Shown: piece after piece, positions 51,582-63,637 of the stretch | Numbering within the stretch: the first letter of the stretch is position 1 | Layout: each line of letters begins with the position of its first letter | NCBI GenBank assembly: GCA_905478775.1 | Contig: CAJQKB010000036.1 | Location: 1 to 64,000 of the forward strand | DNA length: 64,000 nt | Direction: 5' to 3' | From: an uncultured Opitutales bacterium | GTDB taxonomy: Bacteria; Verrucomicrobiota; Verrucomicrobiia; Opitutales; Seribacteraceae | Notes under the pieces: generated by a model | The model's input: the letters and a program-made list of their open reading frames with translations, nothing else | Told to the model about the DNA's origin: nothing | Databases searched by the model: none | Made by a program: the position numbers and the translations under genes

Positions 51582-52982
51582 TTACGCAAGAATTGGGTTC
51601 AGTACCCGCCCGTGAACATCGGTAAGTCGTAAATCGCGACCACCATGTCGAAAGGTCAGGTTTTCATGATCTAAACCTAACAGGTGTAGCACCGTTCCCC
51701 AAAGGTCATAAAAGTCACATTTATCTTCGGTTACATGATACCCAAATTCATCCGTTGATCCATAAACGGTTCCACCTTTAATTCCTCCACCGGCCATCCA
51801 GATGGAGAATCCATACGGGTTGTGATCTCTTCCATCCGATCCTTGGGAGAATGGAGTACGTCCAAATTCACCTGCCCAAATAACCAAAGTCTCGTCTAGC
51901 AGACCACGGACTTTTAAATCTTGAAGTAACCCGGCTATCGGTTGGTCTACTTGGTGAGCCATGGCTGAATGTCCTTTTTCTAAAACACCATGCTGGTCCC
52001 ATGGGTTAGCTGCTCCTCCCGCTCCAAGTTTTTCCGTTAAGCAGCTCAATTCAACGAATCGAACACCTCTTTCCACCAATCTTCGGGCCAGAAGGCACTG
52101 CTTGGCATAACTTGCTTTTTGAATATCTGAAGAATCTAAGCCATAAAGTTTTTTGGTGGCTTCTGTTTCCCCTTGGATCTCACACAACTCGGGAACGGCA
52201 GCCTGCATTTTATATGCAACTTCATGATTTTGAATGGCAGCCTCAACTTGTTGATTATTTCCTACCTGATGCAGAAATTGTTGATCGAAGGATTTATGAA
52301 AATCTAATCTTTTACGTTGTGAGAAAATTGATTCTCTTGGTGTTACATTTATTATTGGTTCATCTTTATCGACCTGGAGAATAGATCCTTGGTTATTTGC
52401 GGGAAGGTACCCACTTCCATATAATCCAACTCCTCCATGGGGTGGAACCGATCCACCACTATGTAGAACAACAAAGCCAGGCAAGTTCTGATTGAGGTTA
52501 CCAAGCCCATAATTTACCCAAGCCCCTGCGGTGGGATGTCCCATGAAAGGAAAACCAGTATGGATAGCATAGTTTCCCTGTGCATGTTCGTTCACTTTGC
52601 TGGTCATCGAGCGAATCACGGCAATTTCATCGATCATTTCAGCGGTTCGTGGAAATATTGAGCTAACCGGAATTCCACTTTGTCCGTACCTTTTAAATTT
52701 GAAGGGAGAGGGGAAAACATTTCCGTTATTATTGAATTGGGTACGCTCGACCTTGCCCGGCATGGGTTGCCCTGCAAACTTGTTAAGGGTTGGTTTCGGA
52801 TCAAATGTATCGATGTGAGAAACTCCACCGGACATGTAGCAGAAGATGACACTTTTAGCCTTGGGTGTGAAGTGGGGTTTTGCTGAAAGCTTGTTTTGCC
52901 CAAGCAGTCCTTGGAGGGCAAGCATGCCAAATCCGCTTGAGCAAGTGGTGAGCATTTTACGACGATTTAGTAGGCTATTCAT
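51582..52982 (-). CDS. DUF1501 family protein with Tat-like signal
   Basis: The 466-residue protein has a twin-arginine-like N-terminus ([20 protein letters not shown]), so it is probably exported folded. The blocks [29 protein letters not shown] and [20 protein letters not shown] are characteristic of DUF1501, a sulfatase/alkaline-phosphatase-like superfamily group abundant in Planctomycetes and Verrucomicrobia. These genes are usually paired with DUF1553 genes, as here with 7 bases between. The role is thought to be breakdown of complex, often sulfated, polysaccharides, but no reaction has been assigned. Confidence 0.9.
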
Positions 52983-52989
52983 AGGAAGT

Positions 52990-55900
52990 TTATTTTAAAT
53001 AAATGAATTCTTTCATATTAAAAAGGGCGAGAGCTAGATCTTGAAGTTTTGGTTTATCTGCAATTACGTTAGCCTCAAGTTCTAGGAGTCTTTTTTCTAA
53101 AGAATTTCGTTGAGCAGTAAGTTTTGTGTACAGGTTCATTTCTTCAATAGATAATGACTTCTCTGCTTCCTTAAAACTTACATAGGAATCTGGATGAAAG
53201 ATGGTATTGATTTCACTTTGAGTAAGGGCCCGGTCATAAACTGAAGCCCGACTGATACTACCGTGTAACATCCGTTGAGGACTAGCCGGGAGGTGTCTGA
53301 CACCAAAAGTAAGTACAGATTTATTTTTCTGGTACTTGTAAAGACTTGTAGTGTATGGCTTCCCATACATTTTTCCATTGCGATAACCAGTGATTTTTCC
53401 ATCAAGGGAATAAGTTATAGCAATATGAACTAATTCGTTATGGGCAATATTTTCGGGAGGTGCGGAAGGAAAAGGCTTTGTTCTGGAAAAACCATTACTA
53501 CCTGACATCCATTTCCTTGTCTCTTTTTCGGCAAAGACAATCGAATCAAAAACACTACCATTCGTGCTTTGTATTGTGATCACTCCACCAGCTCGTTGGC
53601 TGAGACTATCTAGTTCTACCCAAGTAGAAAGTGTTTTTTCGGCAACTGCTATTGGTAGGGTATCGGTTACCGCGTGTCCTCCTTTGCGAAGAATTAATCT
53701 TCCATTTTTCACAGCAGCACCATTTTTGAGGTTGGCTTTTAGACCTAGTATTTGATCTTTCAGTCCGCTTTCAAAGTTCCATTGAAGAACTGGATCAAGA
53801 GAATGCTTCTTTTTCGGACCTGTAGAAGATTTTTTGCTTTCGATTAAATTCTCCCGAACAGGGTCAATGATTCCTGAAATCTCTTTGCTTAGATTTAATT
53901 TCTTCTCGTTCAATCTCAGTATTATATTTTTTTGTTTCGCACTTTCCTGCTCCGAAACCGTTAAGTAATCAATTGATTGTTTGATCTCATTTTGAGTTGG
54001 GTTTCTTCCGAGGGAGTTTCGAAACATAACGGTTATCTTGTCTTTTAAATCGCCATTCCTATGTAAGTTTGCAAATTCCCTTGCAGCTCTGATTACCAGG
54101 GGGTCATTCATCAGCGTAAGTGACTGAGCAGGTACATTTGTAATATCACGCCTGCCTTTGGTTGAGGAGGGTACTGGTGCATCAAAAACAGATAGAAATG
54201 GGTCTAACGAATTCCGTTTCACTTGTCTGTAAACCGATCTTCTTACACTGTTAGAGGGTTCGGGGACACCTTCAGCAACCCTGTCTAATTTGATTCTGCC
54301 CGAAGCCAAAAGCATGGAGTCATGAATCGCTTCGGCTTCTAGCCTGCGGAGATTAGCATGAGAAAGTAGTAAGTTGTTTGGATCGCTCTGTTGTGCTTTA
54401 GCGGAAGGTTTTGAAGATGCCCGAAAAGCTTTGGTTGTAACAAGAAACTTGATCATACTTTTAATAGACCACCCATCTTCCCTAAATTTGGTGGCGAGGA
54501 AATCTAGGAGTTCCGGGTGTGTGGGTTTTTCTCCCAATCTTCCGAAGTTGTCAGGAGTTCTGACAATCCCGTGGCCAAATAAATGGTGCCAAATTCGATT
54601 TACGATCACCCGGGATGTAAAAGGGTTATCTTTCCGCAACAGATCTTTTGCGAATTCTAATCTGCCAATGGAATCCTTAGGGTAGGGGGTAGGATCAATC
54701 GCCTCTAAAAATCTTCTTGGTACTTTATGCGTCGGCTTCTTGTGGTTTCCTCTTTCGAATAATGCTTGTTCAAATGGTTCTCCGTCCAGTAATCCTGGAG
54801 CTAGGCGTGGTGCTTTGATCAGGGATTCAATTTTACGATATTCCGAAATGAAATTTTTACAGGTTGGTACTTCTTTTAGGGAATTGGGTAGTATGCCCTG
54901 CTTGATCAATGAATTAAGAATTCTAGCTTGAGCATCAGTTATGGAATTATCTTCCCAAGCTTTGATTGCATCCTTAATTACTCGTGCATAGAGAATTGCT
55001 AAATCTTGTGAGTTTGTTGCGGGTAAAGAAGTGGTAAATAAAGGAGAGAGAATTTCAGATACCTCATCTCTTGGTGCAGGTTCATCATGAGGAGCATAAA
55101 AAGCCTCTGTTACCCCAAACCAAGAGCGTTCAGCATTTCCTGCTTCTACTGGATGGTCACGGCTGGTGGTTACTTCGAGGTATCCGGTTTCTCCTGCCCA
55201 GTAGTCCGTTTTGAAACGGATCCATTTTTCTACCTTAGGCTCGGGTGAGGATTTTTGGTATACGGTTCCTCTTCTCGGATAATTCCATACTGAATATCGA
55301 ACGGTAGTACCTTTGTCTCCGATAACTCGAATCCAAAGGTTGCCTTTTTCAAATTTAAATCGGGGAGAAGAAAGGGTTCCATTTTGTTTGGTACTAAATA
55401 AATGAGTGTAAACACCAGCTGGCATGATATTATGTATTATCTCTTCACCCTTAAAGTTGAGGGAGAATTGCCCTGCTTTTGTTGAATGTTCGTTCAGTCC
55501 GGATCCACTCTTTTTCCATTTTGCGTAAGTCTCCTGTATGCCAAGGTTCCAATAATTTTTGTTTGAATTCTGGAGACGCGAAACAATTCGGTTTCTGCTC
55601 TCTTCAACCTGCTTCTTTAATCGTTCCCACTCCTTTGAGAATTCCTGAGCTTTAAGAGTATGAAGTTTTTTCCATGGCATTAGAAAGTCGAGAGCTTGAT
55701 CGGAAGGCGATATTTTCTGAGTACTATTTTTTAATTTGTTTTCGATATCGATTTCCATCCATGATTGTACGAATTCGTTCTTAATTTCCTGTTTTAGAGA
55801 GGTAAGTTTATCTTTATGCTCATGTAAAGTTGAAGGATCATCTATCACTTTCTGTGCAGGCCGACCGTTGGAGAGAATACCGAATAATGCATAATAATCG

Positions 55901-57006
55901 TCCTGGCTGATCGCATCGAACTTATGGTGATGACAGCGGGCACACGATACGGTCAGACCGAGAAAGGTTTTTGTTACGGTATCAATTTGGTCATCGGTAA
56001 AGCGCACATGCTCATCCAATGCATCCGTTGGAGCAAAGCCATGAAGTACAAAGCGAAGATGCGCTGTTCCGATAGTAGATTCATTAATCCCGAGAACTTT
56101 GTTAATCCTTGGCTTTTCGACTAGATCACCAGCTATATGCTCAAGGACAAGTTGATCAAAACTGATGTCTGCATTAAGTGCACGTATTAGGTAATTACGA
56201 TAGCGGAATGCATTTGGAATCCTGGGATCCCCTTCACTGCCGTGGGAGTCTGCATAGCGAACCCAGTCCATCCAATGCCTAGCCCACCTTTCTCCAAATT
56301 GAGGACTATTCAGCATTATATCACTGAATTCATGAACCGCCTTATCCATGTTTTCCTTGGATAATTCTGTGAAGCGATTTTGTTCTTCAATGGATGGGGG
56401 CAGCCCAGTTAATGCGTAGGATAATCTTCTCAAAATCGATAAAGGTTCCTCGTTTTTGTTTAGCACTAGTCCTGCACCCTTTATCTTTTTAGTAAGAAAT
56501 TGATCTACCGGGTGTTCTTTCTTCGCTGAGTAAGTATTTACCGTACGGACGGGTTGAAAGCTCCACCACAACTTTCTTTTTTCGCGAATTTTTTCCCATG
56601 AAGTTTCCTTGGCAAATTCCTCTGCAGTTGGCGGTTTTTCTCTAGGATCATAAGCACCATTAGAGATCCATTGTTCAAAATCCAAGATTATAGATTCTGA
56701 AAGCTTCGGTCCTCCCTTAGGCATTTTTAGGTTTTTTATTTCATGCCCCATTACTTTGAGCAACAAACTTTCCTTGGGGTCCTTTAAAGATATTGCTGAC
56801 CCTCGATTACCTCCCTCGATAAGTCCATTTTTATAATCTAAAATCAATCCTGACTTTGATTTATTTATACTATTGTGACAATCGTAGCAATTTTCTGCCA
56901 GCACAGGTCGAATTCTTGATTCAAAAAATTCTGCCTGATTTATCGCTTTTAACGAAGTAAGTAAAAAGAAAGAAGAAAATATGAGGGTTAGATATCTTGT
57001 AACCAT
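52990..57006 (-). CDS. Cytochrome-c-like / DUF1549 / DUF1553 protein with LamG domain
   Basis: The large exported protein has 1338 residues. After a signal peptide (about 1-21) comes a planctomycete-type cytochrome domain with one haem motif, CYDCH (40-44). The DUF1549 domain contains [16 protein letters not shown] and [14 protein letters not shown], and the DUF1553 domain contains [20 protein letters not shown]. Near the C-terminus (about 1080-1270) a concanavalin/LamG-like domain ends in [20 protein letters not shown] and is followed by a short helical tail. It forms an operon with the DUF1501 gene. The haem suggests electron transfer during polysaccharide breakdown, and the LamG part suggests glycan binding; both are inferred. 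Confidence 0.9.
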
Positions 57007-58181: not shown

Positions 58182-59780
58182 TTAGGATTTTTTTCTGAAC
58201 TCTTTGATATAGTCCTCCCGAACGGACATATCACTCTCATCTTCGTAAGACTTTTGTAAATTTTTGAGCCTTTGCTTGAGCTTATTTTGTAATTTCATGG
58301 TTTCTTTTTTTCCATAAAGATTAGAAAGTTCGTCAGGATCTTTGTTAAGATCGTACATTTCCCATTCATTTTTAAACTGATAGAAGTGCATGAGTTTGTG
58401 CCGCTTGGTACGAATACCATAATGGCGTGGAACCATGTGGACGCTTGGATATTCGTAATAATGATAGTAAATCTCGCTTCTCCATTTTTTAGGCTTTTCC
58501 CCTTTCATCAAGGGCACTAATGAAAGACCCTGCATATCCTTAGGTTGGGTGGCACCGGCGATTTCAAGAAATGTTTGCGCATAATCCAAGTTCTGCACCA
58601 ATTCAGTTTCACGACTGCCCGGCTTGATTACACCTGGCCATTTGACAATGAGAGGCATTTTAAGGGATTCCTCATACATCCACCTTTTATCATACCACCC
58701 ATGATCTCCAATATAGAATCCTTGATCGGATGAATAGATGACTATCGTATTTTGATCTAAACCTAGTCGGGTAAGTTCTTTTTGGAGTCGATCTACGCTT
58801 TCATCGACTCCCTTCACGCATCGAAGGTAGTTTTTCGCATATCTTTGAAATTTCCAACGGATGAGATCTTTACCCGAAAGTTTGGCCTTTCGAAAAGCTT
58901 CATCTCTCGGTGCATAGTGGGCCCTCCATGCCTTAAGTTGTTCGGGGCTCATTCTTTTCATGTTGTGCCAAGCGGACCGGTCCTGTCTTAACTGAGAGGG
59001 GGGTTGATTAAATTCAGGAGTCAAATCTACGAATAGATCGTAATTTAAATCCATATGCCGATCGATTTCCAGTTCCTGCAGCCTTGCCCCTGGTGCATTA
59101 TCTTTCCACTCATCGAATAGGGTAGGTGGTTCAGGAATTATAACATCGTCATAAAGTGACAAATGCCTCAGGGCAGGCATCCAATTCCGATGCGGAGCCT
59201 TATGTTGAACCATAAGCATAAATGGTTGTTTATCGGATCTTTTTTCCTTAAGCCACTCGACAGCCAAATCGGTCACCACATCCGTGCAATACCCGTCTAC
59301 CCGTTTTTTCCCATCGGGAAAGATCATATCAGGATTGTAATAGAGACCTTGCCCGGGAAGAACCGCCCAATCATCATATCCTAATGGTTTTCCCTTCAGG
59401 TGACTTTTTCCATAAATTGCAGTTTGGTATCCTGCCTTTTGGAGAAGCTTTGGAAAAGTTTGTTGATTCCAGTCAAAAGTATTTCCGTTATTCATAAACC
59501 CATTCTTATGACTGTGCTTTCCAGTTTGAATAACTGCTCGACTGGGACCACAAATTGAATTTGTGCAGAAGCTGTTTACAAAAAGCATACCGTCACGGGC
59601 AAGTTTATCGATTACCGGAGTCGGGTTCACCGATTTTAACCATCCATTATAAGCACCGATTGCATGAGGAGCATGATCATCAGTAAAGACAAATAATATA
59701 TTGGGACGATCCACCTTTGCCTGAATCAAGTTAAAAAAGGCTAAATAAAGGAAAGGTAATGCTTTGAAAAGGTAGTTCAT
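58182..59780 (-). CDS. Secreted formylglycine-dependent sulfatase
   Basis: The enzyme hydrolyses sulfate esters, probably on polysaccharides. I start it at ATG 59780, giving 532 residues with a signal peptide (1-22); the frame runs further upstream, but that part overlaps a hairpin and looks non-coding. All active-site positions are present: Asp34-Asp35 (FTDDH), Cys77 and Arg81 (CGPSRA, the formylglycine signature), Lys125 and His127 (GKSHL), His197 (APHRNW), Asp352-Gln353 (SDQGF) and Lys365. It needs a formylglycine-generating enzyme, which is not in the window. A paralogue without these residues lies next upstream. Confidence 0.93.
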   Translation of the reverse strand: MNYLFKALPFLYLAFFNLIQAKVDRPNILFVFTDDHAPHAIGAYNGWLKSVNPTPVIDKLARDGMLFVNSFCTNSICGPSRAVIQTGKHSHKNGFMNNGNTFDWNQQTFPKLLQKAGYQTAIYGKSHLKGKPLGYDDWAVLPGQGLYYNPDMIFPDGKKRVDGYCTDVVTDLAVEWLKEKRSDKQPFMLMVQHKAPHRNWMPALRHLSLYDDVIIPEPPTLFDEWKDNAPGARLQELEIDRHMDLNYDLFVDLTPEFNQPPSQLRQDRSAWHNMKRMSPEQLKAWRAHYAPRDEAFRKAKLSGKDLIRWKFQRYAKNYLRCVKGVDESVDRLQKELTRLGLDQNTIVIYSSDQGFYIGDHGWYDKRWMYEESLKMPLIVKWPGVIKPGSRETELVQNLDYAQTFLEIAGATQPKDMQGLSLVPLMKGEKPKKWRSEIYYHYYEYPSVHMVPRHYGIRTKRHKLMHFYQFKNEWEMYDLNKDPDELSNLYGKKETMKLQNKLKQRLKNLQKSYEDESDMSVREDYIKEFRKKS

Positions 59781-59872
59781 TTTGCGAATGATCATAATTT
59801 GAAAAATTAAAATTCTTTTACTAGAAACTCTTTTATTACAATAATAAAAAGCCCCAAAATGTGAATAAAAGA

Positions 59873-59906
59873 TGAAAGGTGCCGTCCTCCCAAACGACAC
59901 CTTTCA
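59873..59906 (-). terminator. Probable terminator hairpin between the two sulfatase genes
   Basis: TGAAAGGTG (59873-59881) and CACCTTTCA (59898-59906) form a 9-bp perfect stem. Read on the minus strand it is followed by TCTTTTATT, as expected for a Rho-independent terminator. It lies about 106 bases past the stop of the upstream paralogue, so the two sulfatase-like genes may be transcribed separately. Confidence 0.5.
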
Positions 59907-60012
59907 GGATATGCATTCCTTTGTTATAAACATAAGGGATATTTAATATCCTACAAGCTTTTTTATGTTTTTGTTGGGATTTATCCTGTTTTACAGGCAA
60001 ATAGTTGTTTAT

Positions 60013-61623
60013 TTATTCTTTTCTAGCTTCAGGCCCTCTATAAATTTTTCTCCATTCTTCCGGCATTATTGAAATATCGGATCGGTCTAAATATTTTGTT
60101 CGATTCCTGATTAGTAGTTGTTTCATTTTTTCTAATTCAGAACTGTAGGATTCTTTACTGTAAAGATTTTTGGATTCAGTGGGGTCATTTTCCAAATCAT
60201 AAAATTCCCATTCATCGAATTGATAAAAATGAATTAATTTATGTTTGAGGGTTCGAATGCCATAATGTTTTGCAATCATTTGATCACCCGGGAATTCATT
60301 GTGATGGAAATAAATTGAGTTCCTCCATGTATTATTTGAATCTTCATTATCTAACAATTGACTCATTGACTTTCCCTGCATCCCCTTGCCTTCTTGAAAG
60401 CCGGCATAGTCGAGAATTGTTTGGGCAAGATCAATATTCTGTACAAGCGAAGATACTGTCTTAGGGGAGGATAAACCTAAAGGTTTTCTTATGATAAGAG
60501 GAATTTTACTCGATTCTTCATAGATCCACCTGGACCCAAACCATCCATGTTCACCCAAAAAGCGGCCATGGTTCGATGTGTAAACAAAGAAGGCACTAGT
60601 GTTATTAGTTGCGGTTAAAGAATCATTAATTCTTTTGATATTCTCGTCAATTCCACTGACGCACCGAAGGTAGTTTTTGGTGAAGCGTTGAAATTTCCAT
60701 TGTAAAATATTCTCCTTGGATTGATTTTCTCTAAGGAACGCTTCATTTTTTGGTCTCCAGGAGAGCGTCCATGCCGAGTGTTGCTCGGGGGTCATAAGAT
60801 TCAAGTTCTTTTGGCTATTTGAATTCTCCGTCTCATTTGATTGATTACCATCTGACTGTTCGGATGGAAAAAAAAGATCATTTGAAAGTTTGAGGTCTTG
60901 TTTGATTTCCATCGATTGATAGCGGGCGGGACTGGCTTTTCCGGCGTGTTCATCAATGAAATTAACAGGTTCTGGTAAAAGTTTATCATCATAAAGCCTC
61001 AAATGCCGAATCGCAGGCATCCAGGGATTGTTGGTGGCATTAAATTGAATCAGTAGGAAGAAGGGCTTTTCATTTCTCTTTTTATGTAACCAATCTAGAG
61101 CCAAATCTGTAATAATGTCAGTTGAATGTCCTTCAATTCTTTTTTGACTTTTTGAGTTTAAAAACTCGGGGTTATATTTTTCTGTTGGATCTGCTAATAT
61201 GGACCAGTTATCAAAACACTCTGGTTCTGTACCGAGATCCCATCTACCAAAGAGTGCGGTTTGGTACCCTATTTCTTGTAAAATTTTTGGTAGATAGTTT
61301 TGGGATGTGTTGAATTTATTACCGTTCTGGATAAATCCATTTAGATGGGAATGTTTTCCGGTTAAAATTACTGCCGAGCTAGGACCAGAAACTGCATTTG
61401 TACAGAAGGCATTCGTAAATACGCTACTTTTTTGCGAAATTAAATCTAGGTTGGGCGTGGGATTTATATCAGATAAATATCCCTTGTAAGAACCCACTGC
61501 ACTTGTAGGATGACTTTCTGAAACAATCATAATAAAGTTCGGTTTTTCACTTCCAATAGTTATGAGAGAGGAACCAAAACAAAATACTTTTAAAATAATT
61601 AATTGTAACCAAATCGTTTTCAC
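60013..61623 (-). CDS. Sulfatase-fold paralogue lacking the active site (pseudosulfatase)
   Basis: The protein has 536 residues, aligns along its whole length with the neighbouring sulfatase and has a signal peptide (about 1-24); the start is GTG 61623. The fold blocks are kept (NPTPNLD, TGKHSHLNGF, WKFQRFTKNYLRC, HYGIRTLKHKLIHFYQF). The catalytic positions are not: the Asp pair is Glu36-Ser37, the Cys is Ser79 and the Arg Ser83 (SGPSSA), Lys and His are Arg127 and Asp129 (GRWDL), His is Asn198, Asp-Gln is Asn351-His352, and the last Lys is Ser364. The frame is open and codon use looks normal, so it is not a decaying gene. It is probably a binding or structural protein. Confidence 0.88.
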   Translation of the reverse strand: MKTIWLQLIILKVFCFGSSLITIGSEKPNFIMIVSESHPTSAVGSYKGYLSDINPTPNLDLISQKSSVFTNAFCTNAVSGPSSAVILTGKHSHLNGFIQNGNKFNTSQNYLPKILQEIGYQTALFGRWDLGTEPECFDNWSILADPTEKYNPEFLNSKSQKRIEGHSTDIITDLALDWLHKKRNEKPFFLLIQFNATNNPWMPAIRHLRLYDDKLLPEPVNFIDEHAGKASPARYQSMEIKQDLKLSNDLFFPSEQSDGNQSNETENSNSQKNLNLMTPEQHSAWTLSWRPKNEAFLRENQSKENILQWKFQRFTKNYLRCVSGIDENIKRINDSLTATNNTSAFFVYTSNHGRFLGEHGWFGSRWIYEESSKIPLIIRKPLGLSSPKTVSSLVQNIDLAQTILDYAGFQEGKGMQGKSMSQLLDNEDSNNTWRNSIYFHHNEFPGDQMIAKHYGIRTLKHKLIHFYQFDEWEFYDLENDPTESKNLYSKESYSSELEKMKQLLIRNRTKYLDRSDISIMPEEWRKIYRGPEARKE

Positions 61624-61792
61624 TTTCCATGTATTGAAAGGCTTTGGAATAAGTTGCGAGGAAATTAAATAAATCTTTGTAAATTGTAGAAACTTTACCC
61701 CCTGAAAATTTATAAATTTGCAGATTTTCTGCTCATTAAAATACAGAGTTTAGAGTTTGAACCTTTTATCGTGAACCTCTATGAATCTATTA

Positions 61793-63637
61793 ATGTGTGG
61801 AATAATTGGATATTTAGGTAAAGGTGCAGCCCAAGAATCACTGATAGATGGTCTCAAAAGACTTGAGTATCGGGGTTATGATTCAGCAGGGGTTGCATTT
61901 CACGAAGGAAATGAATTTTCGATGGCCCGTGAAACAGGTAGGGTGAAGAATTTAGCGGAATCGGTTCATAAAAAGGCTTCTTCCTCTTCTCTTGGTATTG
62001 CCCATACCCGCTGGGCAACACACGGCGCGGTTACCGTTTCAAATACTCATCCTCATATGAGCCAAGACGGAAAATTTGTGATGGTTCACAATGGAGTGAT
62101 TGAAAACTTTGGAACTCTTAAGAAATTTCTTGCGGGTAAAGGAATTAGTTTTGTTTCAGAAACTGATTCTGAGGTTTTATGCAATCTTATTGCCTATCAT
62201 TATTCAGAATTACCGGAAGGAGAAGACAGGTTTATCGATGCAGTGCGCTCTGCACTTCCTCAATGCCGAGGCGCGTACGGGATTGCTGTGTTATGCTTGG
62301 ATTATCCGGAAACTATGATTGGTGCAAGACGGGGTTCGCCCCTTGTTGTAGGATTGGGTGAAGATGCCAATTTTATTGCCAGTGATGCCTCGGCATTTGT
62401 GGGTCGTGCGAAAGAGGCAGTTTTCCTAAACGATGGCGAATTAGCCATTCTTAAAGGTAATGAGTTTCGGATTTCAACGATGGAGGGACAAGAAACCCAA
62501 GCAATTTCACATCCTGTTGAGCAGATCTCTGAAGAAGTCGAACTGGGGGATTATGACTCCTACATGGAAAAGGAAATATACGAGCAACCCAAGGCCTTAG
62601 AAAATACACTTCGTGGTCGATTTGGAGAAGATGGAACAACTGCGAAGTTAGGGGGACTGGAAGGGCACGAAGATGAGTTGCGAAACTTAGACCGCATTAT
62701 TTTCGTTGCTTGTGGAACGGCTCGGCATGCATGCATGGTAGGCGAATATTTAATTGAAAAGTTAGCCCGTGTACCTGTTGAAGTTGAGCATGCGTCCGAA
62801 TTTCGTTACCGGAATTCACCCAAAGCGGGAAATTCTTTGGTTATTGCAGTGAGCCAATCGGGAGAGACTCTGGACACTCTTGAAGCCGTTCGGGAGGCAA
62901 AAACAAAAGGTCTCTTAACATTGGGGATTACCAATGTTGTTGGCTCATCCCTCGCACGAGAGACTGATGGTGGAGTTTACCAACGTGTTGGCCCGGAAAT
63001 CGGAGTTGCCTCCACCAAGGCATTTTCCTCACAGGCTTGCCTATGTGCGATGCTTGGGCTTGCTCTCGGTCGAATGCGCGACCTTTCACCAACGGATGGA
63101 CAGGCCATTGTGGATGGACTGAATAAATTGCCAAAATTAGTCGAAGAAGTTTTGCAAAAGGGCGATCAAATTAAAGAACTTGCGACTAAGTATTCCAAGG
63201 CAGAACACTTGCTTTTTCTGGGTCGGCAAAGTCTTTATCCAGTTGCACTCGAAGGTGCACTCAAGTTGAAAGAGATATCCTATGCCCATGCTGAAGGTTA
63301 CCCGGCAGCTGAATTAAAACATGGGCCAATCGCCCTTATTAATCCAGAATGTCCTTCTGTTTTTATTGTGGAAGGGACAGAACTCTCCTCAAAGACCATT
63401 GCGAATATGCAGGAAGTAAAAGCACGGAAAGGGCCTGTGCTAGCGATTGCACCTCAATCTGTGGAAATTCCTCCGGAAGCAGCGGATGACATTTTTCGTA
63501 TTCCTGATGCTCATGAGGTAATTCGACCCATTTTAGCTAATTTACCTCTTCAACTATTTGCCTATCATTTTGCCCGACTACGGGGATTGGATGTCGATAA
63601 ACCCCGTAACTTAGCCAAATCTGTTACTGTTGAATAA
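61793..63637 (+). CDS. glmS: Glutamine-fructose-6-phosphate aminotransferase (isomerizing)
   Basis: GlmS makes glucosamine-6-phosphate from fructose-6-phosphate and glutamine, the entry to peptidoglycan and lipopolysaccharide amino sugars. The start is fixed at ATG 61793 because the glutaminase nucleophile must be Cys2 (MCGIIGYLG), freed by removal of Met; an ATG four codons upstream is rejected. Visible blocks are the glutaminase loop HTRWATHG and two SIS domains (CGTARHACMVGEYL, SQSGETLDTLEA). The C-terminus ends in LRGLDVDKPRNLAKSVTVE, the conserved tail. The length is 614 residues. Confidence 0.97.
   Translation: MCGIIGYLGKGAAQESLIDGLKRLEYRGYDSAGVAFHEGNEFSMARETGRVKNLAESVHKKASSSSLGIAHTRWATHGAVTVSNTHPHMSQDGKFVMVHNGVIENFGTLKKFLAGKGISFVSETDSEVLCNLIAYHYSELPEGEDRFIDAVRSALPQCRGAYGIAVLCLDYPETMIGARRGSPLVVGLGEDANFIASDASAFVGRAKEAVFLNDGELAILKGNEFRISTMEGQETQAISHPVEQISEEVELGDYDSYMEKEIYEQPKALENTLRGRFGEDGTTAKLGGLEGHEDELRNLDRIIFVACGTARHACMVGEYLIEKLARVPVEVEHASEFRYRNSPKAGNSLVIAVSQSGETLDTLEAVREAKTKGLLTLGITNVVGSSLARETDGGVYQRVGPEIGVASTKAFSSQACLCAMLGLALGRMRDLSPTDGQAIVDGLNKLPKLVEEVLQKGDQIKELATKYSKAEHLLFLGRQSLYPVALEGALKLKEISYAHAEGYPAAELKHGPIALINPECPSVFIVEGTELSSKTIANMQEVKARKGPVLAIAPQSVEIPPEAADDIFRIPDAHEVIRPILANLPLQLFAYHFARLRGLDVDKPRNLAKSVTVE

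Follow-up and report, generated by a model that had tools for sequence, protein, structure and literature searches.

A sulfatase homologue with all ten canonical active-site residues replaced is conserved at a glmS-linked locus in two genera of Opitutales

The stretch of DNA analysed here (hereafter the window, 64,000 nucleotides) is drawn from contig C36 of a 2.78-Mb, 185-contig assembly (95% complete) of an uncultured Opitutales bacterium. It contains two sulfatase genes, both on the minus strand and flanked by glmS and a BNR/sialidase-like gene. The upstream gene, P0001 (60013..61623, minus strand), encodes a protein of 536 residues from a GTG start, with a hydrophobic N-terminal export stretch, and will be referred to as the pseudosulfatase; the downstream gene, P0002 (58182..59780, minus strand), encodes an active S1_11-type sulfatase with the full set of ten catalytic residues. 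On one side of the pair lies glmS (glutamine-fructose-6-phosphate transaminase; 61781..63637, plus strand), a divergent conserved neighbour that serves as a marker of the locus, and on the other the convergent conserved gene for the BNR/sialidase-like protein (PF13088; 57137..58180, plus strand). The space between the two sulfatase genes holds a conserved RNA element of about 60 nt (59864..59923, minus strand), putatively a small RNA or a 3' element associated with the gene for the pseudosulfatase, together with a promoter-like stretch (59929..59956, minus strand) that is a consensus match only. The open reading frame of P0002 was called from 58182 to 59900 (572 residues, open to 59900); the start is probably the ATG at 59780, before the signal peptide, and between 59780 and 59900 the overlong N-terminus of the called frame reads through the RNA hairpin. 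In the window's genus (g1), most loci have a DUF1501 gene and a PSCyt1/PSCyt2/PSD1/laminin-G gene (51582-57006 in the window) adjoining the BNR gene; both are absent from this position at the loci of a second genus, g2, and at the loci L094 and L095.

Both frames are intact and the two proteins align over their full length at 43% identity, in keeping with the first-pass annotation, which had described an intact frame with an export signal and an alignment throughout. Its central observation, that the ten canonical residues are all different in the upstream protein and all kept in the downstream one, is borne out by alignment of P0001 to P0002 and to BT4656 (5g2v): P0002 carries D74, D75, C117, R121, K165, H167, H237, D392, Q393 and K405, all ten as expected, and at the same sites P0001 reads E36, S37, S79, S83, R127, D129, N198, N351, H352 and S364, such that 10/10 are replaced, some of the changes (D to E, K to R, D to N) being conservative. 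The Ca ligands and the catalytic Lys and His residues of the S subsite are all among those replaced. The maturation motif of S1 sulfatases, C/S-x-P/A-S/x-R, gives rise to the formylglycine nucleophile (PMC10154612), and the corresponding position of P0001 reads S79-G-P-S-S83, which departs from it. S1_11 enzymes recognise the sugar in subsite 0 via an Asp/Arg dyad (PMC10154612), Asp345/Arg347 in BpS1_11 (PMC12316285); by residue counting on the alignment, the equivalents are D361/R363 in BT4656, where they flank the catalytic K362, and D404/R406 in P0002, and the former dyad of P0001 is G363/R365, with the Arg kept and the Asp lost. Among approximately 68 sulfatase-like open reading frames of at least 380 residues identified in this genome by a motif screen, the exceptions to which were read by eye, P0001 alone is without both the formylglycine Cys/Ser and its Arg.

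The overall architecture of the protein is that of a sulfatase. P0001 has Pfam matches to Sulfatase (PF00884, 4.6e-36) and SGSH_C (PF16347, 1.7e-49), as does P0002, and its AlphaFold model (pLDDT 83.5, pTM 0.87) finds its best PDB match in BT4656, with TM scores of 0.84/0.91 for this predicted fold. By sequence, the best solved relatives of P0001 and P0002 are 9s03, BT4656 and BT3177 (7p24), of which the latter two are S1_11 enzymes. When compared with BT4656, BT3177, BuS1_11 (7lha/7lj2), BpS1_11 (7snj/7sno) and, by sequence, 9s03, P0001 shares the predicted fold and domain order at roughly 28-38% identity over the structural alignment, C-terminal subdomain included, but unlike these enzymes it has no CxPSR, Ca ligand set or catalytic Lys/His, and the Asp of its dyad is a Gly. 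Lacking a formylglycine precursor motif, an intact Ca-ligand set and the catalytic acids and bases, P0001 would be unable to hydrolyse sulfate esters, a reading to which we give, jointly with the pseudoenzyme explanation developed below, slightly better than even chances. Counting members of the formylglycine-generating enzyme family (PF03781) had no bearing on the question.

Further members were collected by a search of 92 relatives, by region fetches and by a profile search of 42 genomes of the family, yielding a set of 29 pseudosulfatase sequences from 28 genomes, the near-full-length ones scoring above 690 bits against the profile versus below 590 for active enzymes. The 27 near-full-length sequences form a monophyletic clade with a support of 100. 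Of 153 distinct S1_11-type relatives, Planctomycetes included, 120 read DDCRKHHDQK exactly at the ten sites, and the sequences with at least two of these sites replaced are exactly the 29 of the pseudosulfatase clade, which rules out chance or a sequencing artefact as the origin of the dead site in P0001. In each near-full-length member, most or all of the ten residues have been lost. None of these members retains the Cys, the Arg, either His, the metal-site Asp that precedes the Gln or the second Lys; a D at one N-terminal metal position, a K at the first Lys, or the Q persists in some. No member has both the nucleophile and the Arg of the maturation motif, the former nucleophile position being occupied by S, A, P, T, V, Q or K, and in 26 of the 27 the sugar-dyad Asp is Gly, with its Arg mostly replaced (by E in eight, K in five and S in five, among others). 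All members possess an N-terminal hydrophobic stretch consistent with export, as judged by a hydropathy check and not by a signal-peptide predictor.

The gene is present at the glmS-BNR locus in all 28 of the g1 and g2 genomes for which the locus was assembled, and no orthologue with an intact site, which the first-pass annotation would have taken as counting against its reading, was found at the assembled loci of these genera. Seven g1 genomes without the pseudosulfatase are also without a strong glmS match, and for this reason we take their absences to reflect an unassembled locus. The degenerate state is fixed across the clade and is not one of local decay. Two pseudosulfatase copies are found in G006 (L079, G006:C253), one of them of g2 type on a 3.5-kb contig, and this copy probably represents a contaminating contig in the metagenome-assembled genome.

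Under a pairwise codon model, the pseudosulfatase gives omega values of 0.05-0.33 across 11 pairs, some with saturated dS above 1.5, and an omega of 1 is rejected in 11/11 (2dlnL 21.8-350); the corresponding values for the active orthologues are 0.02-0.15. The low-divergence pairs (window-L062, 0.075; window-L061, 0.119; L078-L080, 0.332) alone suffice for the conclusion of purifying selection, and a pair without an active partner likewise gives an omega of 0.19 with neutrality rejected. The pseudosulfatase does evolve faster than the active gene. Within the clade, the ten dead sites have a mean entropy of 2.11 bits versus 1.31 at other positions invariant in active enzymes, a value reached by 0.6% of random site sets, and the active-site loops around the dead positions show above-average conservation (rank 0.36). 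As the dead sites vary and the surrounding loops are conserved, the fold and the loop scaffold have been kept and the catalytic chemistry specifically has not. In the clade, the C-terminal tail (MPEEWRRIYRGPxARK for most of g1) is under tighter constraint than in active enzymes (conservation rank 0.42 vs 0.81). The first-pass annotation had called for an estimate of dN/dS, had noted conserved scaffold segments and had proposed selection for a non-catalytic role; the non-neutral omega, the conserved loops and predicted fold, and the retention of the gene at every assembled locus all speak in favour of this proposal.

Other residues are conserved in place of the catalytic ones. Invariant or nearly so in the clade, and variable or different in active enzymes, are E164, Y235, L244, L287, N293, E294, R298 and N328, to which may be added R354, E358, F362, G363, E522, W524 and P531. 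Part of these clade-specific residues also occur in Planctomycete or other S1_11 enzymes, and for that part we therefore take the states to be old, not new. A new residue adjoining the dead Asp/Gln site, R354, is nearly invariant (23/27), and at the rim of the pocket H38, W128, W201, W361, W366 and H453 are invariant in the clade.

The active gene lies directly downstream of the pseudosulfatase and is co-directional with it in 21 examined loci from two genera, and orthologues of P0002 (71-98% identity) have all ten residues wherever the sequence is complete and unambiguous. In six genomes (G016, G026, G033, G035, G039 and G040, 89-96% complete), glmS, the pseudosulfatase gene and the BNR gene are contiguous and the active gene is missing; no orthologue of P0002 was found elsewhere in these six, the best match being a paralogue of 54-57% identity. 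Conversely, the orthologues of P0002 in genera g3 and g4, and those in other families, have no pseudosulfatase beside them. Since six genomes keep the pseudosulfatase without the active orthologue, obligate pairing with the sulfatase next to it fails on this distribution. The first-pass annotation had placed the pseudosulfatase beside its active paralogue, and as a statement of adjacency this stands; the idea that P0001 is a recent tandem duplicate of P0002 is rejected by an AU test (p 0.02), with long branches leaving its exact position unsure. W128 and N293 are common to the pseudosulfatases and most Planctomycete enzymes, where the family's active enzymes have S and D, and the tree and the residue states together put the pseudosulfatase outside the active orthologues of the family, a grouping with these being what the AU test rejects.

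The RNA element between the two genes lies roughly 95-130 nt past the stop of the pseudosulfatase gene and reads GAAAGGTGTCGT-TTGGGAGG-ACGGCACCTTTC, followed by a U-rich 3' tail, and comprises a 12-bp covarying stem, an invariant loop UUGGGAGG and a conserved leader AAGGAAUGCAUAUCCUGA; in g1, the leader AAGGAATGCATATCCTGA is conserved 5' of the hairpin. The 14-nt apex is identical in all examined g1 loci and in the g2-type loci that retain the active gene. Three stem pairs are changed on both sides across 24 cells, an outcome found in 0/500 shuffles, with 99.3% of cells paired, and the folding z is -5.1. The element is seen in the window and in L061-L082, L087, L094 and L095, is degenerate in L083 and L086, and was not found in L084 or L085. 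Across 273 genomes of the order, a covariance model recovers the element in 24, once in each, at an E of 1.5e-9 or better, all of them g1 or g2 and always just downstream of the pseudosulfatase gene, as well as three further weak matches (E 0.0016-0.007), and Rfam 15 holds no match above the gathering threshold, giving chance-level matches only. The element is undescribed, and its confident matches are confined to g1 and g2.

An ordinary terminator is insufficient to account for the invariant loop and leader and the compensatory stem changes. A leader peptide, for which the MHILKGVVWEDGTF reading frame would be the candidate, is disfavoured, given that the changes preserve base pairing and change the encoded amino acids, that third positions of the loop codons are invariant in intact copies, and that a ribosome site would abut the start codon. 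A role as leader for the active gene alone is likewise disfavoured, as L094 and L095 have an intact element but no active gene. No conserved complement of the loop was seen in the glmS leader. Most simply, the element would be a small RNA gene or a structured terminator tied to the locus. In most g1 loci, a TTG box and an A-tract stand at a near-constant distance of about 35-37 nt upstream of the RNA, and the promoter-like stretch itself consists of the A-tract, then TTGTAG, a 16-nt spacer and TATGTT.

The sequences establish the loss of the catalytic residues and of the sugar Asp, the keeping of the predicted fold, purifying selection, a fixed locus and independence from the active gene, and P0001 joins homology to an enzyme family and catalytic-residue loss to purifying selection as opposed to decay, which places it in the general class of pseudoenzymes. 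We consider it somewhat probable that P0001 is an old, exported, non-catalytic pseudoenzyme derived from S1_11, acting by binding through new surfaces. An old S1_11 paralogue would have lost catalysis, most simply once, before the divergence of g1 and g2, and since that loss a folded non-catalytic protein would have been retained, serving as a periplasmic or surface-located scaffold or binding protein. Candidate contacts are E164, Y235, L287, E294, R298 and R354, with E522, W524, R529 and P531 of the C-terminal tail. Substrate capture, which the first-pass annotation had offered as one possible role, is unlikely to proceed via the ancestral sulfate/sugar pocket, because the sulfate/Ca subsite and the sugar Asp are gone and these positions vary freely. 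The old pocket may still be doing something, given its invariant rim residues and the new and nearly invariant R354.

Pseudoenzymes that modulate active paralogues are well known from other families, and P0001 might in like manner be a partner, chaperone or allosteric subunit of the adjacent S1_11 enzyme or of a different one, in a heteromer of pseudoenzyme and enzyme. Pairing of this kind, with the active neighbour, had been among the roles first suggested, and the co-directional adjacency in 21 loci of two genera is consistent with it, but in its obligate form it does not survive the six genomes that have lost the neighbour and kept the pseudoenzyme, nor is it helped by the active orthologues of g3, g4 and other families that have no pseudosulfatase, by the terminator-like hairpin that separates the genes or by the very different evolutionary rates of the two proteins. 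The other S1_11-type sulfatases (53-57% identity) of the species without the orthologous neighbour are possible partners, and we regard a partner role, for the adjacent enzyme or one of these, as a minority possibility. Marginally less probable, in our estimation, is that the old cavity has been repurposed for another ligand, either a glycan that is unsulfated or carries a different charge or a small molecule, in a lectin-like capture. Such a role would suit the above-average conservation of the loop scaffolds, the invariant H38 and W128 and the kept rim aromatics, the new R354 and the exchange of the dyad Asp for Gly, and, as general context, related marine Verrucomicrobia grow on sulfated algal glycans (PMC8857213). 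However, the ten ligand positions and the dyad Arg vary without pattern, which is unexpected for a maintained polar ligand site, and strong clade-specific constraint is also found outside the loops, at 235-300 and in the C-terminal tail.

In several members, E36 with D or S at position 37, and Ser or Thr where the nucleophile used to be, might suggest a different catalytic chemistry on the alkaline-phosphatase fold, yet the clade as a whole conserves no set of polar residues at the old site, and a neofunctionalised hydrolase is very improbable. Less credible still, and contradicted by the data, is a decaying duplicate or an assembly artefact: the faster evolution of the pseudosulfatase relative to the active gene is what decay would produce, but the frames are open in all members, omega is well below 1 in every pair, and the gene is kept in every assembled locus with the same state in many independent assemblies. 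Beyond the favoured reading of P0001 as a binding pseudoenzyme, one may speculate that the pseudosulfatase and the RNA are one conserved unit of this marine Verrucomicrobia family, co-inherited even after loss of the neighbour in some species and jointly acting; a sensor or binding protein might, for instance, have an RNA-level output through which glycan or cell-envelope metabolism is tuned at the glmS locus. We hold this to be distinctly doubtful.

Heparanase 2 (PMC12406646) and the bacterial pseudo-orthocaspases (PMC6426788) are likewise dead homologues retained beside active relatives; they differ from the present case in belonging to other folds and families, and in the P0001 clade it is the whole catalytic set that is lost. 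No description of an S1 pseudosulfatase was found in the literature searched, from which subscription journals were mostly absent. Marine Verrucomicrobia and Planctomycetes that are rich in sulfatases are usually read through counts of sulfatase genes. Since a full-length, domain-annotated and selected 'sulfatase' can lack all catalytic residues, such counts can mislead, as can predictions of substrates. The clade constitutes a well-bounded natural experiment, with 28 genomes, intact paralogues alongside and natural deletions of the neighbour, and as such opens the role of a dead sulfatase scaffold to direct testing; the covarying RNA next to the gene is a new lead in its own right. The window's genome is itself very sulfatase-rich, with 88 places matching PF00884 in 2.8 Mb, and another of its sulfatase-like open reading frames (L218, G000:C183) reads CRPSL for the expected CxPxR, the Cys being kept and the Arg apparently replaced by Leu.
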